Part shown: piece by piece, positions 1-33,712 of the stretch | Layout of the letters: each line of letters begins with the position of its first letter | Numbering within the stretch: the stretch's first letter is position 1 | NCBI RefSeq assembly: GCF_964204865.1 | Contig: NC_135251.1 | Span: 13,392,001 to 13,456,000 of the forward strand | DNA from: Styela clava | Lineage: Eukaryota; Chordata; Ascidiacea; Stolidobranchia; Styelidae | Length of the DNA: 64,000 bases | Reading direction: 5' to 3' | Notes under the pieces: generated by a model | Told to the model about the DNA's origin: nothing | The model's database searches: none | What the model saw: the letters and a program-made list of their open reading frames with translations, nothing else | Translations under genes and position numbers: made by a program

Positions 1-3000
1 TATTTATTTCATGGTTCAAGTATGAAAATATTCTATGGTGGGACCATATCATTTTTGCGTTCGATATTGGTCATAAAACTTGTTGCATATTTTTAGTTTC
101 ACTTCCATCTCATCATACCGTGAAATATAAAATTAACATCATACGAATACGTCATACACTGTTAAATAAGCGAATAAGTTGATATTTGAATACAATCTAT
201 GATGGTTTTAATCTTATACATTCAAATTGATTGAACATAATAAAAGTTATGATCATTTACGGCGTCCTTAAAAGAGAAAGTCAAATATCGATCGTCGCTA
301 TTGAATTAAGAGAATAATATTTCATGCTTCTGTATCTATTACAATAACACGCATTGGAAATATAGATTTACATATTTACTGTGCTATAGTGCACTTTATT
401 GAAATATGGAAAAACAATAAATAACATGACAAGAAGATCGTGACTGTATTTCGTATTGAATTCAACTTTTTATGGTCTGGCGAATTCGATCCATTGTGAC
501 ATCAGCGTTCGATAAAACGTTGCACAAGACTCAAAGACCAATATGTTCAGGGCAATAAAATATTTAACAACAATTAGAGAAAGTAAAACCAAACGCGAAT
601 ATTATTATTATTAAGGATTAATAATAGGAATGATAAAATATGCGTTAATATACCAACAGTTTGACAATGGTAATATAATGTTATTGATTTGTCTTTCTAA
701 ATATTATATTGAAAACTACAACCAAATATTTAAATAAATTGTATCGTCAGCAAAGAAGTTTATTTAATCATTTAAAGCAGGCCTGCACAACTCAAATTAC
801 CACGAGGGCCTCAAGGATAAATCTGAAGGCCCGGCGGGCCGCAAACTTTGCCACATACATATTTCACAAGATGAACTTCAAATCAAAATAATATTGTGAA
901 ACAGTTAAATTTGATGAAACACTTTCATTACTGAAAAGCTTAAAAATATGAAGAATCTTATTTTCTTGAGTATTTAGTGGTTCATCTACCTTGAAAACCC
1001 ACCCTTCTTTCTCAATATTTTTTTTTTTATTAGAATTAGGTATTGCGTGTAGCAGTATAAACTGACTGCAGGAAAATATTTTACTCAGGTTCAGTTTTGT
1101 AAAATCGTCCCACATATAAGTATTCAGTCATATCTATCTATCTAGATATTTCCATTGCAGGCTGGACAAACAATCCGTTTAGTAGCGATAGATCTTCCTC
1201 TGTTGTACTTTTTCGACTGTTAAATTACATTTTTCTACAAAATCTGCTCCAAATTTTTGAAGTTTTACAGTAAATAGCAATATCTTTTGTGCGAGAATTT
1301 CTGCAGCATTCATAAATGAAAAAATTGTTTTTCAAGTTCTAAATTTGAAAAAGAAACTTCAGTTTCATAAACTAAAAAATAGTGGGGTTATTAATAGGTT
1401 GCTAATATGCACTAATGGGTGTGAGATTGTATACCGATATTGTTTTGAGCGTGATTCAGTTTGAATACCGAGATATCTAAATCAGGGTTTTCGAAACTCG
1501 GGGGCGAGAGGTCGAGCGACGAATTTCGGTCGCGAAGGTCGCGAAGGGCACACCAATTTTACACCAAGTTCGATATTTATTGAAACTGGTGCAAAACATA
1601 AATCTCACGATTTCTAATATGATCAGAGTAGCGGCGCGCTTGCATGAATAACAATGTAACAAAAAAAATAATAACAAAGATTTGTTTCCAAATCACCCGC
1701 GGGCCGCACAGAAGTATCTAGCGGGCCGCATGCGGCAGGCCTGATTAAAGACTTAAATTGAAACTCAGCATTTGGATACGCAACAACATTGATTCAAAAC
1801 AGCATATTTTCGTTTATATTTTTTGATAGCAATTTGTTGAAAGGTTCTTTTTGGTATGTCGTAAGTTTACATCACTCACAGTGAGATCAAAAATTAACAA
1901 AACTACATCGGCAAAAAATTGGTCGGTAGATGTCACCGTAGAGCAACATAGGAAATCTGATAATCGGATGATAATTCTTGACAAACACAAAAGATTTATT
2001 GGAAGCGATTGAATTGAAAAATTCGAACTATTAAAATTTAAAACTTCAGCCACACAATCTTTTTTTTATATTATATTAAGGAATTCCTAATTAATAGCTC
2101 ACAAAGCGACAGTCTTGAACGTTCGATTTACTTCAATGCCTTTAGTATTTATGTGTATATAGTGATGATTAAAAACAATCAAATCGATGAAATATGTACA
2201 AACTGGTAATTATAATGTTCAATTAATTAGAACCTTGCTCAGGCTCTTATGATTGGTTGGATGAATTATAATGATTTGAGTCAGAAGTGATGATACCATA
2301 CCACGTAATTCAATCTCAACATATTTTAGATTTGTACGCTACAAAACTATATTTATGAGTATGATGTTTAATTTCAAAACATTTAACGAAATGGATTATT
2401 TTGGACCTAGATATAATTTGACCAAAGATATTTTTAAATTCCATAATCTTGCTATGCAAGACATAATTGTCGTGTATTCTTGTGTTTTCTTACATGCATT
2501 ATCATTGGTTACAGACCAATAAAATCACAGAGACGTCTGCAAGGTGCAAGGTGACGCAGATGCAGTAACGTCAGATTAATCAAACCACGACATGGATGGA
2601 ACCTCGATCACTAAATGGATGAAAAGTCCCGCTGGGAAATTGAACAAGTTTTGTCGGACATGCATTTCCGTCTCGTTTCCACCAGTACCCATGTTTATCG
2701 TATTAAACACAATGAAAAATGTGTAAACTATCGCGATGACGATCCATGAGAACTGAAATATTTATTTGACCTGAAAAAAATGTCCAATATCAAGATGAAA
2801 ACTGAATGCTTTTTTGACCTGACATATTTCACCTCGATCACTAAATGGATGATAAAGTCATGCTGAGAAATTAAACAAGTGTTGTCGGGGATGCATTTCT
2901 GTTTCGTTTCCACCAGTGCCCATGTTTATGGCCTTTATACTCAATGTCTCTATCAAAAATGTAAACTATCGAGATGAGAGTACATGCGAACTGAAATGGA

Positions 3001-3433
3001 ATTTGTCCTGGGAATTGTCATGCTAAATCGAACAGTTTAGGTATTTCACCAAATATCAAAAAATATTCCAAAATACATCTTGGCGACGTTTTGTCGATGC
3101 GCTTATTTTCTTGAACATTTCCTCGAACGTTCATTTTCGTTTGTCTTTGTTTGATTCCGATATATTATTCACAAAACAACGAGGCGCTAGAAATCCCCGC
3201 CTAATTAATTGTTCAATTCAATTAATTTGATGTATTCAACATTGATCCCATATTTACGTCTGTTAATTACTACATTCATTAATACATCAAGGTTCGCCCC
3301 TATTCCATACGATATTTCAAACGTTGAATTACGAATAATTAACATCTAAGATATTCCTCTACTATTCACATTATTTGATGTTTTGAATTAGCAAATTATT
3401 TTTTTCATCTTCACAACATGAATTTAAAATTTT
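1..3433 (+). repeat. Array unit 0 (left, partial, with insertion and deletion)
   Basis: This most diverged copy starts outside the window. It carries the shared blocks for the 'gacatcagcgttcgataaaac' region, the 'ggtaattataatgttcaatt' region and the GAA/TTC palindrome cluster near 3108-3132. It is interrupted by a 966-bp element at 778-1743. Between about 3300 and 3420 it lacks more than 1 kb that the other units carry, including the block ending in the 'cttccttacagattcttgcacc' region. Confidence 0.8.
778..1743. mobile_element. hAT-like non-autonomous element inserted in array unit 0
   Basis: The 966-bp block interrupts unit 0 and is absent from the same place in the other units. It starts CAGGCCTGC and ends GCAGGCCTG, a terminal inverted repeat of nine bases. 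The eight bases on each side, atttaaag and attaaaga, form an imperfect 8-bp target duplication, as expected for the hAT superfamily. Both ends are rich in 'gcgggccgc' motifs. Minus-strand frames of 83 and 66 codons inside it are not recognisable as transposase. Confidence 0.6.
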
Positions 3434-6400
3434 TCTCTCGCGGCCTGGATGCGCAACACGTCATGAGCAGTATGATATAGAGATTACTTTATGGTTCATT
3501 TATCATTATCTTATGGTAGAATCATATTATTGTATGCGTTTGATATTGGCAATAAAACTTGTTGCATATTTTCCTTTCATTTCCTCTAACCGTGAAATAC
3601 ATACCTAAATTGCAAAATAAGAGAATGAGTTGATATTCGAGTGCAGTTGAATCCATACATGTATTAACATTAATACATTATATGTATCTGAGTTAATTGA
3701 ACAAAATAAAGATTATTCTTCTTCACGGCGTCAATTCGGAGAGATAGATTGATCGTCACCCTTGAATTAATAGGGGAATAATATCTCATGCACCTGTATA
3801 TCTTGCAAGAACACGGATTGAAAATCTATATTTAGCCTACATGTTCACTACGCTAGAGTGCATTTGTATAAAAATAAAGATATTCAAGAAAAACATGACA
3901 AGATCGTGACTGTAGTCCGTCTGAAATTCAACTTTTCATTGTCTGGCGAAGTTAATGCATTGTGAAATCAGCGTATGATGATACGTTGCACAAGACGCAA
4001 TGGCCAATATGCCCAACGTATTAAAATATTTAACAACGATTAGATTAAAACCAATCGTGAATATTATTATTATTACGGATTAAGGTGGAGAAAAGGCAAC
4101 TACAGGAATTACGAACATTTTGACAACTGTAATATGGTGTTATTGATTTGTCTTTCTAAATATTATATTTGAAACTGCAACCAAACTTCAAAATAAATTG
4201 GAGCTACACGCATCGTGATGAGCAACAACATTGATTCAAAACAGAATACTTGTTATGTATAAGCGCGTTGGATAAAATATGTTGAAACTTAATATAAATC
4301 TAGTCGTTAGGTGTCATCATAGGGCAACTTGTAAAAACTCAATTCGAACCCTGCCATGGAACGATATATTTGTATTCATAATAGAATGAAAACGAACGAA
4401 CACAAAATATATTAATATTTGAATTCAACAATTGAACGATTAAACTTCTGCATACACAATCTTTAATATATCATGTAAAGCTTGATCAATGAGACACAGA
4501 TCGCCAGACTTCCATTTAACGTTCCGTTTAATGTAGGGCCTTATAGTATTTTTTATTTATTTTACAAATAGTGATGAATACAAAAAAACAACGTGTAAAT
4601 ATTTAATCAAATCAATGAAATATGTGCCAGCTGGTAATTATAATGTTCAATTAATCCGAACCTTGCTCAGGCTCTAATGATTGGTTTGATGAATTATAAT
4701 GATTCGAGTCTGCTGATAAACCGCTCTTGATTCGAGTCTGATAGTCGTTAGAAGCATATTACATATTAGATCCGTGCTTCATGATTATGATGTTCAATCG
4801 AAACGCAAACATAAAACATTCAACGAAACATAGTATTTCAATAAACAAACGGAAGGCAAAAATATTAATTTCCGACCTGGGAATAGCTTGGCTTAGGATT
4901 TTTCAACATCCCATATTCTTGTTATAGCAGGACATACTTGTCGTGAATTTTTCTTACATGCAATGTCATTGGTTACAAACAAATAAACATCAATGAGACG
5001 TCTGAAAAGGGACGCAGATGCAGCAAAGTCAAATTCATTAGACCACGACATGCATTGAACCTCGATCACTAAATGGATAAAAAGTCCCGCTGAGAAATTA
5101 CACAACTTTGTCGGACATGCATTTCCGTCTCGTTTCCACCAGTGCCCATGTTTATGGTATTATTTTCTATCAAAAATGTAAAATATCGAGATGAGGGTCC
5201 ATGATAATTTAAATGCTTATTTGACCTGTGTAAAATACCATTCCACATTGAATAGTTTTCAGATTTCAGCAAATATTCAGAAAGATTCTTAATTGACACC
5301 TTGGCAAGGTTTTGTCGATGTGCTTATTTTCTTGAACATTTTCCTCGAACGATCATTTACGTTCGTCTTTGTTTGATTCCGACCCATTACTGTATTCACA
5401 AAACAACAAGGCGCTAGAAATCTCCGCTTAAATGATCCATTCAATTAATTTGATGTATTTAACATTGACCCCATATTTAAGTCAGTTAATTACTACATTC
5501 ATTAATAAATCCCTTACTACGAAATTTATGCACACGTTAGTTTATGGGAAGACGTGATCGCGTTGCCTTGTACTTTCTTACTAAGAATTTCTATCTTAGT
5601 CCTCAGTCAGTTTGAATAGTTGATGGTCAACTCGAAAGTGATTTCTTGATTATAGATGAATTTACCAATTTTGGATTACATTGTGAAAACCAAAGCAATT
5701 GTAATTTAAATTATATACACGTTCTTATCACCACCATGCGATATATATTTATAATCACATTGATAAATTAGAATCATGTTTCCAACTTATCATATCACAT
5801 ATATATATATATATATCAGTAATTTAATTACATTTTATCTAATTTAAAAGTAAATTGTGGAGAGGCTAGTAGCTGATTTCAAGCAATGATCATGCTGTAT
5901 ACATGATTACCAATTATTTTTGAAGTCTAGGACTTCTAATGCATGTGTACACAACGGACGATGCTTATTTCGAGAGGACAAAATTGCGACTTCCTTACAG
6001 ATGCTTGCACCTGCGGTTACAGGAAGGTGTGGCAAACTTAGCAATATCTATCTGCTTGCCAATTTTTTCATTATTGCGCTGGGAAAGGTTTGAAATTTTA
6101 TGCGAAAATTTTTTTTTATATATATTTTAAAATAAGCCTTAATTAACAATTCCACAAATGTATTTATTTGCCTTTCTTCTATTTATAAATTTTGTTCTGT
6201 TCTTTTTGTAGTCGTGGGTTGAAGCATCTGTTAGTTAGTTAATTATCTTTACATATGAACGAATCAAATAATACTAAGCTTCTGTGAACCCGTAAATCGT
6301 TGATAGAGATGATGTGTCTGGTTTTACAAACAAACAAAGTATTCAGGTAAACAAAAACAAAATGTGTTATCGTACCATTTGTGGATTTGTAGATTATAAC

Positions 6401-6821
6401 ATATGCAAGGTACTCTGAGTAATTATTTTTCTCTGAATAAAATATACAAAGCATTAAACGTCAAGATGTTAAAACATTTACTTGGGGTATCAAAACATTT
6501 TGTCATCAATTAGAAAAAGTAAAACCAAACGTGAATGATATTATTGTTGTGGATTAACGTAAGAAATAGAATCTGCAAATCTAAAACATATGCACAATGA
6601 TACTTTCAATAATAAATGAAAATATAATCGTGGTTATGGGTATTTGATGATGTTATTAGCGATCATCCAATGCCCGCCACTATTCTATATTGTATATATC
6701 ATGCAACGCCGAATTTTGATTTATAAATATTTACCAATTATTAGTTTACCATAAATATTCTTTGATGTTGTCAATTGGCAAATTATGTGATTTATCTTCA
6801 CAACATGAATATGACATCTGC
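3434..6821 (+). repeat. Array unit 1
   Basis: A diverged copy of the repeat unit. It lacks a segment of roughly 300-370 bp present in units 2-5: the 'ggacttctaat' block at about 5930 joins directly to 'gcatgtgtacacaacgg' at 5940. A short AT microsatellite sits at 5799-5816. The region from 6297 to 6390 resembles the terminal part of unit 5 more than the matching part of units 2-4. Confidence 0.82.
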
Positions 6822-9800
6822 CTCTCGTGGCCTGAATGCGCAACACGGCATGAACAATATGACATTGAGATCACTTTATAGTTTAAGTATCGTTTTGGTT
6901 GAACCATATTAATTTATGTGTTTGATATTGGCAATAAAACTCGTTGCATATTTTCAGTTTGACTTTCATCTAATCTAACCTTGAAATACAGAATAAACAT
7001 CATGCGAATACATCATACATTGTAAATAAAATGGATAACTGAATATTATCGATGCTTGTATCAACGTAATAATTAAGTATATGGAACAAAATAAAATTGG
7101 AATTATTTGAAGCGTAATTAAAAGGGAAGCCCATAACTCAAGCTTCTGTATCTCTTACAATAATTGAATTACGGATTGAATATCGTTATTTACGTGTTTA
7201 CTATGCTAGAGCGCATATTATTAATTAAATATGGAAAACCAAAAAATAACATGACAAGATCGTGACTGTATTTCGTCTTGAATTCAACTTTTCATGGTCT
7301 GGCGAATTTAATGCATTGTGACATCAGCGTTCGATAAAACTGTGCACAAGCCGTAACAGCCAATATGCTCAAGGTATTAAAACATTTAACAGCGATTAAA
7401 GAAAGTAAAACCCAACGTGAATATTATTATTCTTACTGATTAAAAGGCGAAGAAATCGCAGTTACAGAAATCACAAAATATGCGCTATTATACCAACATT
7501 TTGTCATTGGTAATATGGTGTTATTGATTTGTTTTTCTAAATATTGGATTTAAAACTGCAACCAAGCATTCAAATTAATCACTTAGATGTTGGATCTACA
7601 CCAATTGTGTTTATATATAAACAATATACTATAGGTATTCCATGCAAGTTATAAAAAGGACGCAAGAAAATTTAGCATCGTGATGAGCAACAACATTGAT
7701 TCAAAAGAAAATACTTGTTATGTAAAAGCGTATTTTATTGGATAAAACATATTGAAACGTGATAGAAATCTAGTCGTTAGATGTCATCATAGAGCAACTT
7801 GTAAAATCGAAATTTGGAGCTAACACAAAACTCTGCCCTGACACGATATATTTCGTCGAAGGTTATTTATTAATAATGAAATAAACAATTTTAATGAACG
7901 TGAAATATCGTTCGATTTAATTTTAGCCTAATAGCTTTTCATATATAATGATTGATAAAAACAACAACGCGTAATAATTATATTAAATCAATGAAATATG
8001 TTCAAGCTGGTTTTTATAATGTTCAATTAATCCGAACCTTGCTTAGGCTCTAATGATTGGTTCGATGAATTATAATATGTCGAGTTTCAACTACGGATGC
8101 AATTGAAGCGCAACACATTTTAGATTCGCGCTTCTGCCGCTTTCTATAACTATATTTTTATAACGTTAAATTTTAAAATATTTAACGAAATGTAGTATTT
8201 GAATAAAAACCGAAGAAAGTAATAAAATTAATTTCAGCCATGAAATTGGCCTATGATTTCTCATCATCTTGCAATGTCATTGGTTACAGACGAATAAACA
8301 TCACTTAGACGTCTGCAAGGTGGCGCAGATGAAACAAAGTCAACTTCATCAGACCACGACATGTATTCTCGATCACTAAATGGATGAAAAGTCCCGCTGA
8401 GAAACTAAACAAGTTTTGTCGGGGATGCATTTCCGTCTCCGTCTCGAAAAACACATTGCCACACATTGAACAGTTTTCAGATTTCACCAAATATTCTAAA
8501 TTGACACCTTGGCAAAGTTTTGTCAATGTGCTTATTTTCTTGAATATTTTCCTCGAACGTTCATTTTCGTTCGTCTTTGTTTAATTCCGACCTATTATTC
8601 ACAGAACAAAAAAGCGCTAAAAATCCCCGCTTAAATGTTCCATTTAATTAACTTGATGTATTTAACATGGACCTCATATTTAAGTCTGTTAATTACTACA
8701 TCTACTAATACATCCCTTACTACGACATTGATGCACATGTTAGTTCATGAGAAGGCGTACTGGCGTTGCCTTGTACTTCGGAGACTTTATTTTTCAGTGC
8801 TAAGTAAGTCTGAATAGTTGCTAGTCACCTCGAAAGTAATTTCTTGTAAAAATATAGATGAATTTTCCCAATTTTGGATTACATTGTGAAAAACAAAGCA
8901 ATAGCCGTAGAAGATTATATACACGTTCTTGGCACTTATCACTTGGTACTTACTTATCTTATCACTTCTTACAATATATTTATAATCACATTGATAAAAT
9001 AAAACGTCGTTATCAACTTATCATATTACATAACATTGATCTGATTAGTTTTCATCTAAATTAAAAGTAAATTTTGAATAGATACTAGCTGAATTTCACG
9101 TAATCAGTACTCTGCACTATTACAAATTATTTTTGAAGTATAGGACTTCTAATTTAGTTGAAGATACCCCAACACAGATAACACAAATAAACTATCACAA
9201 AATTTGTAACTATGAATTTTTATCCATCCACCAACTCAAACTTCGATTCGAAAATATCACGTGTTTATTATTTTGGGAAAGCTTTTTATTTCTAGTAATT
9301 GATATTCATTTATTCCTCCATTAATTACAAATATTTAATCTTGATTTTTGAAATTAGTCTAAGTTATACAAATACATAATTGTTTATATATATACATATA
9401 CTATTTTACGTTTCGATAAACGTAAATTATATTCTGATTTTTTTATGGAACGGATTTGCCATTAGAGCCTGAGCTAACCTAGTGTGTATCGAGTCTTCCC
9501 ACGTTGCACCTGTATGTGTACACAGCGGACAATGCTTATTTCGCGCGAACAAAATTGCGACTTCCTTACAGATTCTTGCACCTGCAGTTACAGGAAGGTG
9601 TGGCAAACTTAGCAATATCTATCCGCTTGCCAATTTTACAATATTGCGCCGGGCAGATTTGAAATTTCATGTTTGTTATGTTAAAAGTTTTAGTCGCGAT
9701 TTAGATTTACTGATGCACAATTTCAAAATAAGCCTAGATATATCACAAAATTATTCATTTTGCCTTTCTTCAATGTGTTTCTTCAATCTTGTTGTAGTCG

Positions 9801-10400
9801 TGGGTTGGAGCACCTGTCAGGTACCTAATTATATTTATATATGAAAACAAAATAATAATAGCCTTCTGTGAACCCGTAAATCGTTGATATGTTCTGTATC
9901 ACAAACAAGTATTCAGGTAAAGAAAATCAAAATGTTATCGTTATCGTGTCATTTGTGCATGTGTGGATCATTACATGTGTACGGTAATCTGACTCTCATC
10001 AAGTAATTATTTTACCCAAAGAAAATATACAAAGCATTAGACGTCAAGATGTTCAATGCAATAAAACATTTGTCATAGAATAAAAAAAAGTAAAAAACCA
10101 AATGTGAATGTTATTATTGTAATGGGTTAATAACGTAAGAAATAGAAGCTGTAAATCTGAAACATATGCGCAATGATACGAATATTATTAAATGAAAATT
10201 TACTTGCGGTTATGGTCCTTTGAAGATGTAATTAGCGATCAGCCTATGCCCGCCAATATTCTATATTATATATAATATATATCCACGTTGAATTTGGATT
10301 TATAAACAATTACCAAACTATTCGTTCAACATAAATATTCTCTGATGTTTTGAATTGGCAAATTATGTTTTTATCTTCACAGCATGACTTTAAAATATTT
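6822..10400 (+). repeat. Array unit 2
   Basis: This copy is intermediate in divergence. It has the complete right half, including the block at 9130-9840 shared almost word for word with units 3-5, while its left half (6822-8900) is more diverged. The mixed pattern suggests that homogenisation has affected only part of the unit. Confidence 0.85.
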
Positions 10401-13400
10401 CTCTCGTGGTCTGGATGCGCAACACGGCATAAGCAATATGACATTGATATTACTTTATGATCCAAGTATTAATATCTTATGGTAGAACCATATTAATTTA
10501 GGCGTTTGATATTGGCAATACAACTTGTTGCATATTTTTCGTTTCACTCTCATCTACTCTAACCATGAAATACACAATTACCTTAGTGCGGATACGTCAT
10601 AGCCTACATTGTGAAATAAAAGAATATGTTGATATTTGAGTATAGTTGATGTTTGTATTAACGTTATATATTTGTGTTAATTGAAAAACTGAAAATAATA
10701 AGTCCTCAACATGTCATTCGAAGAGATTCAAAAATATAAAGTTAGAGATTGATCATCATCATTGAATTGAAGGAATAATGATATCTCTTGTTCTGACACC
10801 TATCACAACAACACATATCTAAATCTTTTAAATACGAGATGATAAAAGTTTTTAATTTGTATCAGGAAGTTGATTTACAGAATAATAAATAAGCTGTGGT
10901 TTGATGCAACTTTTCATCCAATCGTCATTAAAAAAAATTCGGGTCGAATTTTGTAAACGTAATTTATGGAAAATTCTTCTCAACCTAAGAAAGAAAACAA
11001 AGCAGTTGTAAATTTAAGATCATTGCGTATAATATTTCATTGAGTTGAATTAACACGACAAGATTTCGTGTTTGCTTAAAATTCGTCTTGAATTCAATAT
11101 TTTCTGTTCTGGCGAAGTCAACGCATTGTGACATCAGCGTTCGATAAAACGGTGCACAAGACGTAAAGGCCAATATGCTCAAGGTATTAAAACATTTGGA
11201 CAACGATCATAGAAAGTAAAACTAAACGTGAATATTAATATTATTACGGATTAAGGTGAGGAAATCGCAGCTACAGGAATCACAAAATACGCGCTACTAT
11301 ACCAACATTTTGACAATGGTAATATTATATATGGTGTTATTGAATTATCTTTCTTAATGTTGTATTCAAAACTGCAACCAAATATTCATTTAAATCATCT
11401 TAGACATTGGATCTGCAGCAAAGAAGTTTGGATATAAACATTGTAACATAGATGTTCTTTAAAAAATTTAAATAAACTCAAAAAACCTAGCATCTTGATA
11501 CGCAACAACATTGATTTAAAACGGAATGACTGTAATCTATAAGTTTTGATTGAAAACCATGTTGGAACATAATAAAAAATTAGTCGTTAGGTGTCATCAT
11601 AGAGCAACTTGAACAATATCAATTAGAAGCCAACCTAAAACTTTGCCATAGAACGATATACAATTCGCCTACGGTTATTTATTGGTAATTCAATAAAAAC
11701 GAACGAACACAAAATATGTTAATAATTCAATTCAACAATTGGGCGATTTACCTTCTATATACACAATCTTTTATATATCATATAATTCCAAATTAATAGG
11801 TCACAGAGCGCCAGACTTGAACGTTCGATTTAATTTTCATTCATGTGTATATAGTGATGATTAATAAAAAAACAACGTGTAATTATTAGATCAAATCAAT
11901 GAAATATGTACAAGCTGGTAATTATAATGTTCAATTAATCCGAACCTTGCTCAGGCTCTAATGATTGGTTCGATGAATTGATTCGAGTCCGAAGTGCTGA
12001 TATCACGTATTTGAAGTCCAACATGTTTTAGATTTGTGCTCCACAAAACTATATTTCAGATTATGGTGATCAATTTCAAAACAAACGGTATGGAATATTT
12101 TTTATAAAAAAATGAAAATACCAATAAAGTTATTCTGGACTTTTTCAAAATTCCATAATCTTGCTATAGCAAAACATAACTGCCGTGTCTCCTTAGATGC
12201 AGTATCATTGTTTGCAGACGAATAAACATCACTGAGACGTCTGCAAGGTGACGCAGATGCAGCAACGTTAAATTCATCAGACCACGACATGTATTTCACC
12301 TCGATCACTAAATGGATGAAAAAGTCCTGCTGAGAAATTAAACAAGTTTTGCCGGACATGCATTTCCGTCTCGTTTCCCTCCGTGCCCATGTTTATGGTA
12401 TTATAGTCTATCACAAACATCAAATATCTAGATGGGAATCTACAAGAACTGAAATGCTAATTTGACCCGAAAAGACCATGCCTAGTTGAACAGTTTATGG
12501 ATTTCACCAAATACGTAGAATTATTCTAAATCGACTCCTTGGTAAGGTTTTGTCGATGTGCTTATTTTCTTGAACATTATCCTCGAACGTTCATTTTCGT
12601 TCGTCTTTGTTTGATTCCGATCTATTATTCACAAAACAACGAGGCGCTAAAAATCCCCGACTAAATGTTCCATTCAATTAATTTGATGTATTCAACATTG
12701 ATCCAATATTTAATCCAGTTAATTACTACATCTACTAATACATTCCTTACTACGAAATTGATGCACATGTTAGTTCATGAGAAGGCGTAATCGTGTTGCC
12801 TTCTTCTTCGGAGACTTTATTTTTCAGTGCTAAATAAGTCTGAATAGCTGCTGGTCACCTCGAAAGTGATTTTTGTAAAAGAAATATGAATAAATTTTCA
12901 CAATTTTGGATTACATTGTGAAAAACAAAGCAATAGCCATATAAAATTATATACACGTTCTTGGCACTTATCACTTGGTACTTACCTATCTTATCACTTC
13001 TTACGATATATATATTTGTAATCACATTGATTAAATGGAATGGCGTTATCAACTTTTCATATCACATATCATGATTTGCTTAGTTTTTATCTAAATTTAA
13101 AATAAATTGTGAATAGATACTAGCTGAATTTCAAACAATCAGAATGCTCGATGTACGATTGGAAATTATTTTTGAAGTATAGGACTTCTAATTTAGTTGA
13201 AGATACCCCAACAAAGATAACACAAATTAACTATCACAAAATTTGTAACTATGAATTTTTATCCATCCACCAACTCAAACTTCGATTCGAAAATATTACG
13301 TGTTTATTATTTTGGGAAGTTTTTTTTATTTCTAGTAATTGATATTCATTTATTCCTCCATTAATTACAAATATTTTAATTTTGATTTTTGAAATTATTT

Positions 13401-14445
13401 AAAGGTATACAAATACATACTTGTTTATATATATATATATATATACTATTTTTCGTCCCAATAAACGTAAATTAGATTCTGATTTTTCATGGAACGGATT
13501 TGCCATTAGAGCCTGAGCTAACCTAGTGTGAATCGAGTCTACCCACGTTGCACCTGTATGTGTACACAACGGACGATGCTTATTTCGCGCGGACAAAATT
13601 GCGACTTCCTTACAGATTCTTGCACCTGCAGTTACAGGAAGGTGTGGCAAACTTAGCAATATCTATCCGCTTGCCAATTTTACAATATCGCGCCGGGCAG
13701 ATTTGAAATTTCATGTTTGTTATGTTAAAAGTTTTAGTCTCGATTTAGATTTACTGATGCACAATTTCAAAATAAGCCTAGACATATCCCAAAATTATTC
13801 ATTTTGCCTTTCTTCAATGTGTTTCTTCAATCTTGTTGTAGTCGTGGGTTGGAGCACCTGTCAGGTACCTAATTATATTTATATATGAAAATAAAATAAT
13901 AATAGCCTTCTGTGAACCCGTAAATCGTTGTTATGTTCTGTATCACAAACAAGTATTCAGGTAAAGAAAATCAAAATGTTATCGTTATCGTGTCATTTGT
14001 GGATGTATGGATTATCACATGTGTACGGTAATCTGACTCTCATCAAGTAATTATTTTTCCCAAAGAAAATATACAAAACATTAAACGTCAAGATGTTCAA
14101 TGCAATAAAACATTTGTCATAGAATAAAAAAAAGTAAAAAAACCAAATGTGAATGTTATTATTGTAATGGGTTAATAACGTAAGAAATAGAAGCTGCAAA
14201 TCTAAAACATATGAGCAATGATACAAATATTATTAAATGAAAATTTACTTGTGATTATGGTCCTTTGAAGATGTAATTAGCGATCAGCCTATGCCCACCA
14301 CTATTCTATATTATATATAATATATATCCACGTTGAATTTGGATTTATAAACAATTACCAAACTATTCGTTCAACATAAATATTCTTCGATGTTTTGAAT
14401 TGGCAAATTATGTTTTTATCTTCACAGCATGCCTTTAAAATATTT
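10401..14445 (+). repeat. Array unit 3
   Basis: A full-length copy of about 4.05 kb and one of the homogenised central units. Compared with units 4 and 5 it differs mainly by scattered substitutions and a few short indels over several kilobases. It has an AT microsatellite at about 13428-13445. Confidence 0.88.
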
Positions 14446-17400
14446 CTTTCGTGGTCTGGATGCGCAACACGGCATAAGCAAAATGACATTGATATTACTT
14501 TATGATCCAAGTATTAATATCTTATGGTAGAACCATATTAAGTTAGGCGTTTGATATTGGCAATAAAACTTGTTGCATATTTTTCGTTTCACTCTCATCT
14601 ACTCTAACCATGAAATACACAATTACCTTAGTGCGGATACGTCATAGCCTACATTGTGAAATAAGAGAATATGTTGATATTTGAGTATAGTTGATGTTTG
14701 TATTAACGTTATATATTTGTGTTAATTGAAAAACTGAAAATAATAAGTCCTCAACATGTCATTCAAAGAGATTCAAAAATATAACGTTAGAGATTGATCA
14801 TCATCATTGAATTGAAGGAATAATGATATCTCTTGTTCTGACACCTTTCACAATAACACAGATCTAAATCTTTTAAATACGAGATGTTATAAGTTTTCAT
14901 TTGTATCAGGAAGTTAATTTACAGAATAATAAATAAGCTGTGGTTTGATGCAACTTTTCATCCAATCGTCATTAAAAAAAATTCGGGTCGAATTTATGAA
15001 CGTAATTTATGGAAAATTCTTCTCAACCTAAGAAAGAAAACAAAGCAGTTGTAAATTCAAGATCATTGCGTATAATATTTCATTGAGTTGAATTAACACG
15101 ACAAGATTTCGTGTTTGCTTGAAATTCGTCTTGAATTAAATTTTTCATGTTTTGGCGAAGTCAACGCATTGTGACATCGGCGTTCGATAAAACGTTGCAC
15201 AAGACGTAAAGGCCAATCCAAGGTATTAAAACATTTAACAACGATCAGAGAAAGTAAAACCAAACGTGAATATTATTATTATTACGGATTAAGGTGAAGA
15301 AATCGCAGCTACAGGAATCACAAAATACGCGCTACTATACCAACATTTTGACAATGGTAATATATATGGTGCTATTGATTTATCTTTCTTAATGTTGTAT
15401 TTAAAACTGCAACCAAATATTCAATTAAACCATCTTAGACATTGGATCTGTAGCAAAGAAGTTTGGATATAAACATTGTGACATAGGTATTCTTTGAAAG
15501 ATTTGAATAGGCTGAAAAAACTTAGCATCCCGATACGCAACAACATTGAATTAAAACAGAATGATTGTTATCTATGAGTTTTGATTGGTAAACCATGTTG
15601 AAACATAATATAAAATTAGTCGTTAGGTGTCATTATAGAGCAACTTGAATAATATCAAATAGAAGCCAACCTAAAACTCTGCCATGAAACGAAATTCAAT
15701 ATCACCTACGATTATTCATTGGTAATACAATGAAAACGAACGAACACAAAAATATTAATATAACGCCATAGAACGATATTCAATTCGTACCTCCTGAAGT
15801 ATGCGCACCAAGATGGCGCACAAACTGCACTCAGATTGTGTACTAGTTTAGGGTTCAGGTTATGCGACATCTTGGTGCGCATATTTCAGGAGTACCTTCA
15901 ATTCGCTTACGGTTTTTATTGGTAATACATTGAAAACGAACGAACACAAAATATGTTAATAATAATTCAATTCAACAATTGGGCGATTTACCTTCTATAT
16001 ACACAATCTTTTATATATCATGTAATTCCAAATTAATAGGTCACAAAGCGCCAGACTTGAACGTTCGATTTAATTTTCATTCATGTGTATATAGTGATGA
16101 TTAATAAAAAAAAAAACGTGTAATTATTAGACCAAATCAATGAAATATGTACAAGCTGGTAATTATAATGTTCAATTAATCCGAACCTTGCTTAGGCTTT
16201 AATGATTGGTTCGATGAATTGATTCGAGTCCGAAGTGCTGATATCACGTATTTGAAGTCCAACATGTTTTAGATTTGTGCTCCACAAAACTATATTTCAG
16301 AATATGGTGATCAATTTCAAAACAAACGGTATGGAATATTTTTTATAAAAAAATGAAAATACCAATAAAGTTATTCTGGACTTTTTCAAAATTCCATAAT
16401 CTTGCTATAGCAAAACATAACTGCCGTGTCTCCTTAGATGCAGTATCATTGTTTACAGACGAATAAACATCACTGAGACGTCTGCAAGGTGACGCAGATG
16501 CAGCAACGTTAAATTCATCAGACCACGACATGTATTTCACCTCGATCACTAAATGGATGAAAAGTCCTGCTGAGAAATTAAACAAGTTTTGCCGGACATG
16601 CATTTCCGTCTCGTTTCCCTCAGTGCCCATGTTTATGGTATTATAGTCTATCACAAACATCAAATATCTAGATGGGAATCTACAAGAACTGAAATGCTAA
16701 TTTGACCCGAAAAGGCCATGCCTAGTTGAACAGTTTATGGATTTCACCAAATACGTAGAATTATTCTAAATCGACTCCTTGGTAAGGTTTTGTCGATGTG
16801 CTTATTTTCTTGAACATTATCCTCGAACGTTCATTTTCGTTCGTCTTTGTTTGATTCCGATCTATTATTCACAAAACAACGAGGCGCTAAAAATCCCCGC
16901 CTAAATGTTCCATTCAATTAATTTGATGTATTCAACATTGATCCAATATTCAATCCAGTTAATTACTACATCTACTGATACATCCCTTACTACGAAATTG
17001 ATGCACATGTTAGTTCATGAGAAGGCGTAATCGTGTTGCCTTTTTCTTCGGAGACTTCATTTTTCAGTGCTAAATAAGTCTGAATAGTTGCTGGTCACCT
17101 CGAAAGTGATTTCTTGTAAAAAAAATATGAATAAATTTTCACAATTTTGGATTACATTGTGAAAAACAAAGCAATAGCCATATAAAATTATATGCACGTT
17201 CTTGGCACTTATCACTTGGTACTTACTTATCTTATCAGTTCTTACAATATATATTTGTGATCACATTGATAAAATGGAATGGCGTTATCAACTTTTCATA
17301 TCACATATCATGATTTGCTTAGTTTTTATCTAAATTAAAAATAAATTGTGAATAGATACTAGCTGAATTTCAAACAATCAGAATGCTCGATGTACGATTG

Positions 17401-18667
17401 AAAATTATTTTTGAAGTATAGGACTTCTAATTTAGTTGAAGATACCCCAACAAAGATAACACAAATTAACTATCACAAAATTTGTAACTATGAATTTTTA
17501 TCCATCCACCAACTCAAACTTCGATTCGAAAATATTACGTGTTTATTATTTTGGGAAGTTTTTTTATTTCTAGTAATTGATATTCATTTATTCCTCCATT
17601 AATTACAAATATTTTAATTTTGATTTTTGAAATTATTTAAAGGTATACAAATACATACTTGTTTATATATATATATATATATATACTATTTTTCGTCCCA
17701 ATAAACGTAAATTAGATTCTGATTTTTCATGGAACGGATTTGCCATTAGAGCCTGAGCTAACCTAGTGTGAATCGAGTCTTCCCACGTTGCACCTGTATG
17801 TGTACACAACGGACGATGCTTATTTCGCGCGGACAAAATTGCGACTTCCTTACAGATTCTTGCACCTGCAGTTACAGGAAGGTGTGGCAAACTTAGCAAT
17901 ATCTATCCGCTTGCCAATTTTACAATATCGCGCCGGGCAGATTTGAAATTTCATGTTTGTTATGTTAAAAGTTTTAGTCGCGATTTAGATTTACTGATGC
18001 GCAATTTCAAAATAAGCCTAGACATATCCCAAAATTATTCATTTTGCCTTTCTTCAATGAGTTTCTTCAATCTTGTTGTAGTCGTGGGTTGTTGCACCTG
18101 TCAGGTACCTAATTATATTTATATATGAAAATAAAATAATAATAGCCTTCTGTGAACCCGTAAATCGTTGATATGTTCTGTATCACAAACAAGTATTCAG
18201 GTAAAGAAAATCAAAATGTTATCGTTATCGTGTCATTTGTGCATGTATGGATTATTACATGTGTACGGTAATCTGACTCTCATCAAGTAATTATTTTTCC
18301 CAAAGAAAATATACAAAGCATCAAACGTCAAGATGTTCAATGCAATAAAACGTTTGTCATAGATTAGAAAAAGTAAAACCAAATGTGAATGTTATTACAG
18401 TAATGGATTAACGTAAGAAATAGAAGCTGTAAATCTGAAACATATGCGCAATGATACTAATATTATTAAATGAAAATTTACTTGTGGGTATGGTCCTTTG
18501 AAGATGTTATTAGCGATCACTACTATTCTATGTTATATATTATATATATCCACGTTGAATTTAGATTTATAAACAATTACCAAACTATTCGTTCAACATA
18601 AATATTCTTTGATGTTTTGAATTGGCAAATTATGTTTTTATCTTCACAACATGACTTGGAAATATTT
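14446..18667 (+). repeat. Array unit 4
   Basis: A full-length copy of about 4.22 kb. Its extra length relative to unit 3 is largely explained at 15690-15970, where a segment of roughly 100 bp is locally duplicated and a 109-bp MITE has inserted into one copy. AT microsatellite at about 17665-17685. Confidence 0.88.
15788..15896. mobile_element. 109-bp MITE with 9-bp target duplication in array unit 4
   Basis: The two ends are inverted copies of each other over about 35 bases (tacctcctgaagtatgcgca at the left; the complement of tgcgcatatttcaggagtac at the right). It is flanked by ttcaattcg on both sides (15779-15787 and 15897-15905). Units 3 and 5 show the empty site as a single uninterrupted 'acaattcgcctacggtta' block. 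A 9-bp duplication suggests a Mutator-like transposase in trans; the superfamily call is an inference. Confidence 0.8.
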
Positions 18668-21600
18668 CTCTCGCGGCCTGGATGCGCAACACGGCATAAG
18701 CAATATGACATTGCTATTACTTTATGATCCAAGTATCAATATCTTATGGTAGAACCATATTAATTTAGGCGTTTGATATTGGCAATAAAACTTGTTGCAT
18801 ATTTTTCGTTTCACTCTCATCTACTCTTACCATGTAATACACAATTACCTCAGTGCGGATACGTCATAGCCTACATTGTGAAATAAGAGAATATGTTGAT
18901 ATTTGAGTATAGTTGATGTTTGTATTAACGTTATATATTTGTGTGAATTGAAAAACTGAAAATTATAAGTCCTCACGACGTCATTCTAGGAGATTCGAAA
19001 ATATAAAGTTAGAGATTGATCATCATCATTGAATTGAAGGAATAATGATATCTCTTGTTCTGACACCTCTCACAACAACACAGATCTAAATCTTTTAAAT
19101 ACGAGATGTTATAAGTTTTCATTTGTATCAGGAAGTTGATTTACAGAATAATAAATAAGCTGTGGTTTGATGCAACTTTTCATCCAGTGGTCATTGAGAA
19201 AATTTCGGGTCGAATTTATGAACGTAATTTATGGAAAATTCTTCTCAACCTAAGAAAGAAAACAAAGCAGTTGTAAATTTAGGATCATTGCGCATAATAT
19301 TCCATTGAGTTGAATTAACACGACAAGATTTCGTGTTTTGCTTGAAATTCGCCTTGGATTCAATTTTTCATGCTCTGGTGAAGTCGACGCATTGTGACAT
19401 CAGCGTTCGATAAAACGGTGCACAAGACGTAAAAGCCAATATGCTCAACGTATTAAAACATTTGAACAACGATCAGAGAAAGTAAAGCCAAACGTGAATA
19501 TTATTATTATTATTACGGATTAAAGTGAGAAAAATCGCAGCTACAGGAATCACAAAATACGCGCTACTATACCAACATTTTGACAATGGTAATAATATAT
19601 ATGGTGTTATTGAATTATCTTTCTTAATGTTGTATTCAAAACTGCAACCAAATATTCATTTAAATCATCTTAGACATTGGATCTGCAGCAAAGAAGTTTG
19701 GATATAAACATTGTAACATAGATGTTCTTTAAAAAATTTAAATAAACTCAAAAAACCTAGCATCTTGATACGCAACAACATTGATTTAAAACGGAATGAC
19801 TGTAATCTATAAGTTTTGATTGGAAAACCATGTTGGAACATAATAAATAATTAGTCGTTAGGTGTCATTATAGAGCAACTTGAACAATATCAATTAGAAG
19901 CCAACCTAAAACTTTGCCTTAGAACGATATACAATTCGCCTACGGTTATTTATTGGTAATACAATGAAATCAAACGAACACAAAATATATTAATATATGA
20001 ATTCAACAAATTGTGAGATTTACCTGCTATATTTCATGTAATTCCAAATTAATAGGTCACAAAGCGCCAGACTTGAACGTTCGATTTAATTTTAGCCGTA
20101 TAGTATTTATGTGTATATAGTGATGATTATTAAAAAAACAACGTGTAATTATTAGATCAAATCAATGAAATATGTACAAGCTGGTAATTATAATGTTCAA
20201 TTAATCCGAACTTTGCTTAGGCTCTAATGATTGGTTCGATGAATTGATTCGAGTCCGAAGTGCTGATATCACGTATTTGAAGTCCAACATGTTTAAGATT
20301 TGTGCTCCACAAAACTATATTTCAGATTATGGTGATCAATTTCAAAACAAACGGTATGGAATATTTTTTATAAAAAAATGAAAATACCAATAAAGTTATT
20401 CTGGACATTTTCAAAATTCCATAATCTTGCTATAGCAAAACATAACTGCCGTGTCTCCTTAGATGCAGTATCATTGTTTACAGACGAATAAACATCACTG
20501 AGACGTCTGCAAGGTGACGCAGATGCAGCAACGTTAAATTCATCAGACCACGACATGTATTTCACCTCGATCACTAAATGGATGAAAAGTCCTGCTGAGA
20601 AATTAAACAAGTTTTGCCCGACATGCATTTCCGTCTCGTTTCCCTCAGTGCCCATGTTTATGGTATTATAGTCTATCACAAACATCAAATATCTAGATGG
20701 GAATCTACAAGAACTGAAATGCTAATTTGACCCGAAAATGCCATGCCTAGTTGAACTGTTTATGGATTTCACCAAATACGTAGAATTATTCTAAATCGAC
20801 TCCTTGGTAAGGTTTTGCGATGTGCTTATTTTCTTGAACATTTTCCTCGAACGTTCATTTTCGTTCGTCTTTGTTTGATTCCGATCTATTATTCACAAAA
20901 CAACGAGGCGCTAAAAATCCCCGCCTAAATGTTCCATTCAATTAATTTGATGTATTCAACATTGATCCAATATTTAATCCAGTTAATTACTACATCTACT
21001 AATACATCCCTTACTACGAAATTGATGCACATGTTAGTTCATGAGAAGGCGTAATCGTGTTGCCTTTTTCTTCGGAAACTTCATTTTTCTGTGCTTAATA
21101 AGTCTGAATAGTTGCTGGTCACCTCGAAAGTGATTTCTTGTAAAAAAAATATGAATAAATTTTCACAATTTTGAATTACATTGTGAAAAACAAAGCAATA
21201 GCCATATAAAATTATATACACGTTCTTGGCACTTATCACTTGGTACTTACTTATCTTATCAGTTCTTACGATATATATATTTGTAATCACATTGATTAAA
21301 TGGAATGGCGTTATCAACTTTTCATATCACATATCATGATTTGATTAATTTTTATCTAAATTAAAAATAAATTGTCAATAGATACTAGCTGAATTTCAAA
21401 CAATCAGAATGCTTGATGTACGATTAACAATAATTTTTAAAGTATAGGACTTCTAATTTAGTTGAAGATACCCCAACACAGAAAACACAAATTAACTATC
21501 ACAAAATTTGTAACTATGAATTTTTATCCATCCACCAACTCAAACTTCGATTCGAAAATATTACGTGTTTATTATTTTGGCGAAGTTTTTTTTATTTCTA

Positions 21601-22265
21601 GTAATTAATATTCATTTATTCCTCCATTAATTACAAATATTCAATTTTGATTTTTGAAATTATTTAAAGTTATACAAATACATACTTGTTTATATATATA
21701 TACTATTTTGCGTTTCAATAAATGTAAATTAGATTCTGATTTTTCATGGAACGGATTTGCCATTAGAGCCTGAGCTAACCAAGTGTGAATCGAGTTTTCC
21801 CACGTTGCACCTGTATGTGTACACAACGGACGATGCTTATTTCGCTCGGACAAAATTGCGACTTCCTTACAGATTCTTGCACCTGCAGTTACAGGAAGGT
21901 GTGGCAAACTTAGCAATATCTATCCGCTTGCCAATTTTACAATATCGCGCCGAGCAGATTTGAAATTTCATGTGTGTCATAATAAAAGTTTTTGACTCGA
22001 TTTAGATTTACTGCATGATACACATTCCAAAATAAGCCTAGACAATGCCACAAAGGTAGGCTATTAATTCGCATTTTTTTAAATGTGGTATTGAGTTCTG
22101 GCCATTTTGTAGTCGTGGGTTGGAGCACCTGTTAGGTACTTAATTTTATTTATATATGAAAATAAAATAATGATAGACTTCTGTGAACCCGTAAATCGTT
22201 GATAGAGATGATATGAGTCTGGTATTAGAAACAAGTATTCATGTAAACAAAAGCAAAATGTGTTA
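18668..22265 (+). repeat. Array unit 5 (right end, truncated)
   Basis: The last copy of the array. It is nearly identical to units 3 and 4 up to about 21960, then diverges strongly and stops near 22265, before the final few hundred bases seen in other units. The last stretch (22190-22265) is closer to unit 1 than to its neighbours. Confidence 0.85.
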
Positions 22266-22308
22266 TCGTAGTGAAGTCGCGATGCACTTGCTGCAAATCT
22301 GTTACGAT

Positions 22309-22497
22309 CCCCTCGGGGCTAGATTTCGAAAGTTACTCGGTTCGGAGAGATAACGGGACGGCGATGCGGGAATGCAGATATTAATTAGTAAACAGACCGA
22401 TAATCTAAGTCGTTATCACGCTGATAACGGAGGGTATAAATCACCCAGACAATGGGCTTGAACTTCATTCTGCCTTTTGGGATCGTGTTGCATTGAG
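22309..22497 (+). promoter_or_regulatory. CDC25 core promoter and non-coding first exon
   Basis: TATAAA lies at 22435-22440. A TCATTC initiator-like start sits about 32 bp downstream, near 22467, which is standard TATA-to-start spacing. A 5' splice site, GAG|GTAATA, ends a short leader exon at 22497. Upstream are four GATAA motifs (22349-22353, 22399-22403, the reverse at 22413-22417, and 22423-22427) and an AP-2-like CCCCTCGGGG at 22309-22318. CTTGAA at 22457-22462 resembles a CHR cell-cycle element at the start site. A matching acceptor, ttatcttcag, precedes 23355, about 100 nt before the start codon. Start site and binding sites are predictions from motif and spacing. Confidence 0.6.
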
Positions 22498-23457
22498 GTA
22501 ATACCAAAGCCAGGTTTACTTTTTGATTGTGACAATGTTTTCACTAAAGGCATTCGCTGATGTGAACATTTGATAAACTTCACCAGTTGCCCGGATGAAA
22601 TTAATGGACATATATAGTTTTAGACTAGGATTGAAAGCGATATAACAAAATATTTTCTGAATGGGTATAAGTAAGTATCAAAGCATCCTTGAAAAGAATT
22701 AATTTTGATTCTGTGGGATCCGAATGGGGATTAGGAGCGACCAAAGAGTGAGAGAGAAAATAAGAGAATAAAAGAGAGAGAGAATGAGAGACCTTCGCGG
22801 TAGAAAAAAGAGTGGACATCCTCGCGATTCAGATTTGTCCTACAGCTTATACATATTTGATTGCTGACTGCTCTTCGTAGACAGTATGGAATTACAGTTT
22901 CAATCGACTATTGTGCGGTCAATGATCGTTTTTGAGAGAAGAGACATGTCAAGGCATGTTCCTTTATTTAGTGACAGATGGGAAACGAACCCTTTTCACA
23001 CATGGCATGCTTCACCAGCCTGTCAGTTCATTATGAGCAATAGCTTACTAACCAGCGTCAGATGTCTTATATTATCATTGGAATATTTAATTTCGGGGTG
23101 CTGTTCAATTCTGAGTTAACCTTAGCAGTTATCAGGTTATAGGCTATTGTTATAAGAGCTTGTCAGGCAATATATTTGTATACAGGCCTACTTATGTAGT
23201 TATGTATATTTTATTAAAATGAACTGAATGTCAGTATTGCTTTCTGGCTTTACTGAGCTGCTAAATTCATGTAAATCTGTGAATACAGGAATAGCCAAAT
23301 AGTATACAGGTATAGATCAAGAGTCCAAAAATTTCACTATATTTTTATCTTCAGATTTGTATATTTATTTGGAATTACCAAACAGCCCTCTGAGGATCTA
23401 ATTGGCCCAATCTTGAGGGCTTATAAGTAATAATATATATCTGTTTCTATCGCTGAA

Positions 23458-26400
23458 ATGACGGATTCAGGATTCTCATCTGCTGCCTCACAAAGGTCAA
23501 CATCTTCGATTATAAGATCAACTCACATAAACTCGTTTTCAAGTTCTTTGAAGACGGATATGTATAATTTGCCAACAACCAATGAGGAGAATCAGGATTT
23601 TGGCGAAAATGCTTCAATCCCAAAACCAAGCATGTCATATCCAAGTAATTTTGGAAGACCAGTCATACCAAACAGGTCAGTACAACAATCGGATAGTAAT
23701 CAAGTGTTTCATTGATGGAGTGAATCCAGAAATCTGTAAATAATGCGATAGTATATTCAGATATAACTGACTTGACATACAGTGAATACTGGAATATTAT
23801 TGATTGTAGATTATCATACCATATGTCTTCTATTTCAGATTAATTTATGGCAAAAACCATGGAGGATATTCACCTGGATTATCGCCTTTTTCAAACCCAG
23901 ACATGTCACCAATGTCAAGTTTGACATATGATTTCAAAGAACTCAACACAAGGTGAGTCAACTGTTTATATAGTTATATATAAAACAAATTCAATAATAT
24001 TTTATTTCATTATTTTATAAATTCTGAAATTTGTATTTACAGTCACAACCAATCTGCCACTCCAAGAAAACGTTTGTCTTTGTCTAGTGTTTCGAGTTTA
24101 GATTCTCCTCACCCAAATGGGTCATCATTTTTTGGTTGCAATAACCTTAGCCATGTGTCACCAGCCCCATCATCTCTTGCGTCAAGCTACAACTCACCAC
24201 ACCAGCTTGCATTAGCTGATGACGGTGAGTTCTTATGAATATAATCTCTAAAATGTATCATTTGGATAAGTAAATGGCTATAAATTCAGTAGCATGGTCA
24301 TCAAAATTTTTGTCTCATTAGAATGTTGGATGGACGTGTTTATTCAATTTTTCAAAATCGAACTTTTTCGGGTAATTAGTAACATAACTTGTTTACTAAT
24401 CCGTGCCAATTCTAAATTGGCAAATAGCAGTGACAAACATTAAGTAGAAGGTATTGTAGACTAATTATAGTATTCAAGGGTGCAGATTGTAATGCAACTG
24501 TTGCCAGGTGGCTACATTTAGTAAGTTAAGTAGCTTTTCAGATTAGCAAGTGCAAGTTTCATTTGTGCTAGTTTGTATTTGTTTCAAGTCCAATATATAA
24601 TCCTCTTTACTACTTAACTTAACTTTCTATGGCCTGTTTTCTAAAATAGGTTTGCATACGTTGTCCACAAATTTAAAAGTGTTATGATTTGAATAATATG
24701 GATATGTATGGCTGACTTTTTGTCACTGGTTGTTCATATAGCCCTCAGGGAAGATGAATTCTTCACCGAGTTATAAAAAATTGTTAAATTTGGGTTTGAT
24801 ATATTGGAATTTGGTGATAATTTGCCGCCCGCAACATAAAAGTTTTCGTTTGTACGGCGCTAACAGATTTTAAAAATCCCGCGCCGCCCAATCTCGCACT
24901 TTACTGGGAGAGCACAGATGTTTGGATAATGAGCACTCACTCTCTCGCTCTTACTCGACCGTGAATTTTATGTCTCTTTTATTATCTTCTCGTCCCATCA
25001 AATTCATTCAAGGAGCGCAGTAGCGTCTCCTCGCTGTCACAAGCAGATGGCATAGTATTTCCCTCGCAAATTCCAGCGGCAACTTGCTTAACTCTTTCGT
25101 GATTTATTGTTGTAATTCATATTCAATTATAATTAACGACGACTATCATGTTTTCAAGTAACGGGTTATAAAATAGACGGGAAAAATGTGACCCTTCGCC
25201 GGTTTTATGATGACAGTCTTCCTGCTATATAGGAAATGGCTTCGAGTTTCGTTCGGATTCTTTTTAAATTAGATCGCTTTGTATCAATGAATTATCCCCA
25301 CGTCGCTTTGTATCACACGGTATTGTGTGTTTTTCGTGACAAATTGAATTCGTTGTTGTCGGTTTAAACCGTTGATACAGTTATGAATACAAATAACGCG
25401 TCGGTGCGTCTCCCATCAAGTACGCAAATATAACATGTTTAACAAATATTTCAAATTAAATACGTTGTTTCGAATCGATAGATTCACGCCAACGTCGCCG
25501 TCTTTCAATCGCCGCAGTTCAGCGAGAAATGGTCTGAAAAGCAAATAAACAAACTTTACTATTTCGACATTTGCGCTTGACGCTCTAGCAATGTGGCGCC
25601 GAATACGCGAAGCCTTGGTCACGTCGTTGCGTGGTATAATAATTGACGCCACTTTGAATTCTCTCTTATTAGCGTGGGTACGCTAGGCTAGTCCAGACAT
25701 TTAGCGTCTCTAGCTGCGTCATTCAATTTTCAACGATATTTACCGCTCCAGGTACATTTCTGTGGTTACAAACTGAGGAGAAATTTACTGTATAGGATTG
25801 GTTTTACGGCACAATGCATTGCAATGAGAACCATATCATGCGTAAAGCAGTAAAAGATTATCATTATCTTCATATATTGGCAGTACTAAATTAGTGATGT
25901 ATTATACTGCTCCAATTAGTCACAGCGTTTCCTTGTATCTTTCCTTGTAAATGTCCCTTTAACAAAAATTCATCAATCAATATCGCCCTCTCAATTTTGG
26001 TAATGTTGAATAGGAACAAAGAAATGTGCATTCGAAACAATGAGTTTTTAATTCACTAGCAATAAACGCCCGTATTATTAGCCGATATCCATTGTTGCGT
26101 AATAAAATGCTGATGCGAAAAGAAGCTTAACATACTTAATAAAACCATTCTTTGAAGACTTAGCTATCACACCCCTTTAAAAACCAAAAGGCGATACGAC
26201 AATCTGATCTATATTATACCTAAGTTGGTAAAAGTGTTAATGTTACATGGGGATTTTACGTGGCTCACGGCATTAAATGTAGCATCATTCTTAGCGAAAT
26301 TTAGGATTTATGACGTCTTACTAGACGTGAAAGTATATTTTTTAGATTATTTGAAAAATGCGCTTGTGCACAACATAAAAAAGTCGCGAACGATCTATTA

Positions 26401-33454: not shown

Positions 33455-33712
33455 TAAGCAGGGATGACTGGCGGGCCTTGTATGTGTGACGTAAAAAGTT
33501 ACATTTTATGAACAATATTTACAGTGTCACAAAAGTGGAAAACAATAAGCCTCGTGCCAAAACTAAATTTAATCGCAATCTCAACAAATTCCTTGAGTTA
33601 TTTATTAACGGAAACATCAAAATTTGGCTTAAGTTTAGCTGTGGCAGCGTCAGGCGGGCCAAATTGAATTACTCAACGGGCCGTGGTTTGCCCATGTCAG
33701 GGTTAGAGTTTT
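33455..33712. mobile_element. hAT-like short element, copy A
   Basis: This block of about 260 bp has a second diverged copy at 60695-60955. The two share a central stretch starting with 'aaaagttacattttatgaa' and the ending 'gtttgcccatg(t/a)cag'. The left end, gttaagcagggatgac, is an imperfect inverted match to the right end, gcccatgtcagggttag. The 'gcgggcc' motifs resemble those of the element at 778-1743. The hAT assignment is tentative; the dispersed repeat itself is clear. Confidence 0.6.

Follow-up and report, generated by a model that had tools for sequence, protein, structure and literature searches.

Positions 1 to 22269/22270 of the window, the whole 64-kb stretch of Styela clava DNA analysed here, are filled by six head-to-tail units of approximately 4 kb, as seen by self-BLAST and in a six-unit alignment. 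These units form a gradient from old to homogenised, and some of them are mosaics. We consider it probable that the array is a tandem duplication specific to this locus, with a centre homogenised by exchange, old edges and some constrained elements inside it; breakpoints within units, together with trees that change along the unit, point to recombination as the cause of the pattern. Coordinates are window positions, with negative values for sequence upstream of the window, of which 40 kb was also examined. U0 to U5 denote the units of the first six-unit alignment and N0 to N5 those of a register set by the array's own edges.

Layout of the array and its neighbourhood

A sequence-only reading of this DNA had proposed six head-to-tail units, which the alignments bear out, but its use of the window as the limit of the array does not hold. 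The direct array begins at about -489, before the window start, and is capped on the left by an inverted, truncated unit of ~76-78% identity (-2040 to -579), giving a total extent of ~24.3 kb with the inverted copy included. All direct units lie on the plus strand. N0, the oldest of them, occupies -489..3320 (1..3320 in the window), carries an insert at 778-1743 and has no counterpart of the last ~1.2 kb of the unit; N1 (3321..6377) begins ~0.3 kb into the unit and also lacks ~360 bases ahead of 5940. At the N0/N1 junction ~1.57 kb is absent, made up of the ~1.2 kb tail of N0 and the ~0.3 kb head of N1. N2 (6378..9946) is a mosaic with an old left part and a right end mostly 95-100% identical to N3. 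N3 (9947..13990) and N4 (13991..18232) are homogenised, the latter with a short transposon at 15787-15896, and N5 (18233..22269), the final unit of the array, is homogenised save for its last ~0.3 kb. Once the two inserts are excised, unit lengths in the natural-register alignment range from 2843 to 4106 bases. Because its first and last edges fall at nearly equal unit positions, the array comprises an integral number of units, N0 to N5, which is the expectation for any tandem duplication. There are no ambiguous bases (N) within the 64-kb window.

Pairwise identities in the six-unit alignment establish a genuine gradient from old to homogenised units, one that greatly exceeds chance. Among themselves, the last three units are 96.7% (U3-U4), 95.2% (U3-U5) and 94.4% (U4-U5) identical; U2 matches U3, U4 and U5 at 84.7, 84.4 and 81.3%, U1 matches U3-U5 at 78.5-78.7% and U0 at 74.7-75.1%. 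Divergence is thus not uniform between the units, and the increasing difference of units 0-2 from units 3-5, noted beforehand from the letters, is recovered as ~75, ~79 and 81-85% against 94-97%. The accompanying description of units 3-5 as nearly identical applies to most of their length (94-97%) but not to the last ~0.3 kb of N5, which is 81% identical to N3.

Two of the units carry insertions. That in N4 is a palindromic, MITE-like element of 110 bases (15787..15896; ends and flanks judged by eye), which is flanked by exact 8-base repeats, is private to N4 and, in a search with a 4000-base query that included it, occurs at 89-95% identity in at least 38 other places in the genome. The insert in N0 (778..1743) bears CAGGCCTG at each end, is flanked by imperfect repeats and appears hAT-like by eye. 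Each unit also has an old internal repeat, represented in N3 by a first member at 10047..10190 (plus strand) and a second at ~11160-11310; the second member is found in all six direct units and the first in five of six, the stretch being absent from N1. A higher-order repeat of small monomers was rejected, since the only repeats of this sort found were the internal pair and, in N0, an additional local copy. Elsewhere in the window, self-BLAST detects two dispersed repeat pairs, 34866-35096 with 38681-38913 (76%) and 33479-33603 with 60746-60871 (85%), perhaps old transposons.

The array is intergenic, lying between two divergent genes. To the right, 22270..30655 (plus strand) comprises non-array DNA and then CDC25, which is read rightward, with coding exons at ~23.4-30.65 kb placed by eye from open frames and a TATA-like motif, also by eye, at 22435, ~170 bases past the array end. 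The stretch with its active-site exon matches solved CDC25B over 57 residues (~30119-30289) with an E-value of 7.5e-21; against the Pfam rhodanese family the exon scores 15.3 bits, below the cut-off of 22.2. The leftward divergent gene (L009:2752-5640, minus strand) has, by eye, about six exons with a signal-peptide-like first exon and a start at ~-4.4 kb, and no Pfam family above cut-off was obtained for it. Further right, NOP14 lies on the minus strand at ~43-54 kb, with three exons above the Pfam cut-off; a 116-base direct tandem repeat, 98% identical (48939-49171; self-BLAST), is located inside its span. A spliced gene on the plus strand at 55300-60080 is perhaps a membrane transporter, one exon having a sub-threshold match to Pfam MFS_2 (E 0.012). 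Outside the window, the genome contains one above-cut-off match to glycosyl hydrolase family 6 (35.4 bits), which none of 14 control genomes has; among animals this family is not known outside tunicates, and the match points to a tunicate.

Mosaic units and evidence of exchange

The mosaic structure is most evident in N2, whose final ~0.8 kb is 95-100% identical to N3 in 11 of 13 windows of 60 and whose last 320 columns are 98% identical to it, with the left part of the unit remaining old. Maximum chi-square analysis placed the N2/N3 breakpoint at N3 position 12215, with identity of 0.765 to the left and 0.923 to the right, and the N3/N5 breakpoint at 13717, where identity is 0.961 before and 0.811 after; for N3/N4 the corresponding values are 0.949 and then 0.986. 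None of 2000 permutations reached the observed maximum in six of the seven pairs (N2/N3, N3/N5, N2/N4, N4/N5, N3/N4 and N2/N5), and for the seventh, N1/N2, it was reached in 10 of 2000. Because breaks of this sort may partly reflect constraint that varies along the unit, the stronger evidence of exchange comes from trees, which change from one part of the unit to another. The tree of 9947-12140 pairs N1 with N2 (support 0.942), that of 11380-11700 joins N3 and N5 to the exclusion of N4 (0.977), and in that of 13720-13990 N2, N3 and N4 cluster, with N1 and N5 outside (0.983). Breakpoints within units and changing trees accord with the earlier suggestion of unequal exchange or gene conversion that spares the edge units, and the locus combines two features of tandem arrays under concerted evolution, head-to-tail copies of one unit and evidence of exchange between units.

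The end of the last unit had been said to resemble unit 1, which proved correct in part. The N5 tail has two indel states in common with N1, its last 38 columns in the six-unit alignment are 95% identical to U1 compared with 89% to U3, and it falls outside the N2/N3/N4 cluster; against this, raw identity over the last 320 positions is higher to N3 (0.84) than to N1 (0.79), and over the last 160 positions it is 0.88 to both alike. From its sequence relationships the tail reads as a stretch that escaped homogenisation.

The history most consistent with these observations would begin with a segment of ~4 kb of intergenic DNA that was duplicated in tandem, with one copy at the left edge turned round. 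Unequal crossing-over in register, probably accompanied by gene conversion, would then have multiplied and homogenised the central units and left the left-hand units, the N5 tail and the inverted copy old. Such behaviour has precedent: a review states that homogenisation tends to be more efficient in the central repeats of an array than near its ends (PMC5615363).

Conserved blocks and content of the unit

Three blocks stand out within the unit. Block A, at 13546..13700 in N3 (plus strand), recurs at 5931-6085, 9502-9656, 17786-17940 and 21803-21957 and in the inverted upstream copy, where it is altered; it is absent from N0. Block B, at 12519..12745 in N3 (plus strand), recurs at 3061-3290, 5281-5512, 8489-8715, 16759-16985 and 20784-21009 and in the inverted upstream copy. 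Block C (12198..12372) gives, in a consensus fold of its minus strand, a long imperfect hairpin of unexceptional energy; part of it is doubled inside N0 (2601-2759 and 2831-2997, 82%; self-BLAST). Mean column identity is 91% for block A (six copies), 90% for block B (seven copies) and 84% for block C (seven copies), and some stretches beside the blocks in old units align at only 45-65%.

The alternation of slow and fast stretches is partly reproducible between pairs of units. Only windows in which both pairs were sufficiently aligned entered the comparisons, 26 of 67 windows of 60 in the main one. Across these, the identity profiles of N0-N1 and N2-N3 run in parallel, with a rho of 0.78 that none of 25 circular shifts equalled, and the partial correlation given GC is 0.80. 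At three window sizes the correlation is 0.48, 0.78 and 0.77, with 0/41, 0/25 and 0/15 circular shifts as high; in the left-half tree the paths of these two pairs have a short branch in common. The branch-independent pairs, N1-N2 with N0-N3, give a weaker correlation (rho 0.43, p 0.026, 27 windows), and N0-N1 with N3-N5 gives values of 0.15-0.52 that vary with window size. For the inverted copy (INV), INV-N3 with N1-N2 yields 0.47 (n=15, p 0.08), N0-N1 with INV-N3 0.20 (n=10) and INV-N1 with N2-N3 -0.08 (n=15). Slow and fast stretches could arise from differences in mutation rate, from AT runs prone to indels or from poor alignment, and the recurrence of the blocks at matching unit positions suggests some constraint. 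We infer with moderate confidence that the unit carries constrained elements, candidates being regulatory DNA or exons of an unannotated transcript.

Genome searches, covering 376.6 Mb in 379 contigs with a first pass that skips very common words, returned at least four matches to a 4030-base unit query, all of which, among the matches listed, are at this locus. All seven genome matches to block B lie inside this array, as do all seven matches, from six copies, to a 44-residue frame of block A. No copies of the unit characteristic of a dispersed transposon family were found at other loci in the 376.6 Mb, the N4 insert alone being dispersed, and the seven copies found at one locus fall short of the high copy number of a satellite. 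The whole-genome search advised at the outset accordingly identifies this locus only, apart from the N4 transposon. In the 104 kb examined, the unit had no profile match at E 1e-3 outside the array, and kinship with nearby genes was rejected on this basis.

Start-to-stop frames in the array reach at most 120 residues. N3 contains 68 stop-to-stop frames of at least 30 residues, and the comparison covered those with matches in two or more of the four old copies. Among the frames listed, most are interrupted by a stop or a frame break in at least one old unit, and none survives undamaged in all seven copies. A few short frames in blocks A and B remain open in several old units, among them 13527-13703 and 13522-13653, and a small coding exon may lie within either block. 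Pfam returned no family for the four unit frames tested, and Rfam returned nothing above cut-off in the whole window, the four matches on N3 being sub-threshold (E 0.18 to 3.6), in keeping with the initial impression that the unit matches no gene family. A substitution scan gave, at best, four of six changes synonymous (N1-N2, block A), followed by 3/6 and 4/10, from among many windows scanned. A protein-coding unit was rejected because most of the frames listed are broken in old units, the four frames tested have no Pfam match and the synonymous signal is weak, and a known structured RNA was rejected for want of any Rfam match above cut-off. Structured RNA in blocks A and B was likewise discarded, since consensus folds contain one double-change pair on either strand of block A and none in block B. 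N4, which is near-identical to N3, was left out of some of the block A and B folds, of the search for invariant runs and of the 294- and 946-window scans described below. The unit apparently is noncoding, making no recognisable protein or known RNA.

Competing explanations and significance

On one alternative reading each unit is a small gene, with an upstream region, a TATA-like motif near 12950, a transcript of ~1 kb running to the natural unit edge and the short cysteine-rich block A frame at 13522-13653. Consistent with this, ATTATATACACG is identical in five of six aligned copies with one change in N4, the frame is 91-98% identical in N1, N2, N4 and N5, the highest synonymous share of the scan falls in block A, and splice- and polyA-like signals can be discerned by eye. 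However, N1 lacks the sequence immediately before the frame and its match to the frame contains one TAA, 4 bases are deleted there in the inverted copy, other block A frames are also open in N3, and the best synonymous share was drawn from many windows; with no Pfam match and no relative elsewhere in the genome, we regard a small gene as unlikely. We attach very little probability to an array of hairpin (microRNA-like) RNA genes on the minus strand of block C, the least of any reading considered. The consensus fold there has 32 pairs, with 96.9% of 191 cells paired in six distinct rows, the seventh row being a duplicate, and contains three double-change pairs compared with 0.5 in shuffles (4 of 500 shuffles as high); block C also has the lowest mean z (-2.24) among 294 windows scored. 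The site was, however, chosen after scans of 294 and 946 windows, in the latter of which it ranks 11th, single-copy z-scores are only -1.2 to -3.0, and N0, N1 and N2, three of the six copies folded, prefer other folds. In energy, the unit's best hairpins stay within the spread obtained from 40 shuffled units, and hairpins clearly more stable than shuffles in each copy, as in a microRNA cluster, are not seen. An RNA gene in block C is not claimed, given the unexceptional energy, the choice of site after scanning and the folds that differ between copies.

Neutral duplication alone, a junk array grown by unequal exchange in which the blocks reflect chance, mutation cold spots or conversion tracts, is the strongest competitor, and we rate it as a real possibility at somewhat less than even chances. 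It fits the weak or absent correlations of the inverted-copy profiles and the lack of an outstanding coding or RNA signal, and N0 and N1 have lost large pieces, which implies that at least those parts are dispensable; it does not readily account for the agreement between the N0-N1 and N2-N3 profiles at each window size, unmatched by circular shifts. That the array is an assembly artefact, with haplotypes or repeats joined end to end, has some appeal in that N3-N5 differ by only 3-6%, a difference within reach of heterozygosity in some tunicates. This is highly improbable given a window free of ambiguous bases, old units that are 15-27% diverged, breakpoints inside units and the private N4 transposon with its exact 8-base flanks, an insertion that argues against simple assembly duplication.

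Locus-specific duplication with a homogenised centre, old edges and some constrained elements, the reading we prefer, leaves room for a more specific role, in which the array would be an amplified control region, or a set of noncoding transcripts, of CDC25, and copy number and exchange would tune division timing. In either case, each unit would keep a few constrained blocks, common to all units, while the remainder turns over. We consider this role a long shot, a little less likely even than a small gene. The array resembles duplicated cis-regulatory regions upstream of a developmental gene in being intergenic, directly upstream of CDC25 and possessed of blocks kept amid drift, and Cdc25 expression is named among the factors that set ascidian division timing in the introduction of one paper (PMC12705688). 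It differs in that enhancer activity is here only a candidate function, and in that block A is absent from N0 and altered in the inverted copy. With satellite and macrosatellite arrays under concerted evolution it has in common a centre more homogeneous than the ends, whereas here six direct units of ~4 kb occupy one locus between genes, contain inner conserved blocks and have no other copies found. Tandemly duplicated gene clusters are similar in that fixed edges enclose a whole number of units, that units are mosaic, as unequal crossing-over would predict, and that one copy at the edge is inverted, but the unit here has no recognisable gene.

Arrays with diverged edges and a homogenised centre are already known as a kind, and this array is a new example, undescribed in the titles and abstract openings returned by a literature keyword search that included ascidian cdc25 enhancers. 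It provides a clean, small instance of exchange that spares the edges: units are few, the gradient from old to new is visible, some units are mosaic, and one end retains a relic in inverted orientation. Should the conserved blocks turn out to be functional, the locus would offer a natural example of regulatory DNA multiplied next to a cell-cycle gene, with a number of copies that lends itself to comparison across individuals and species.
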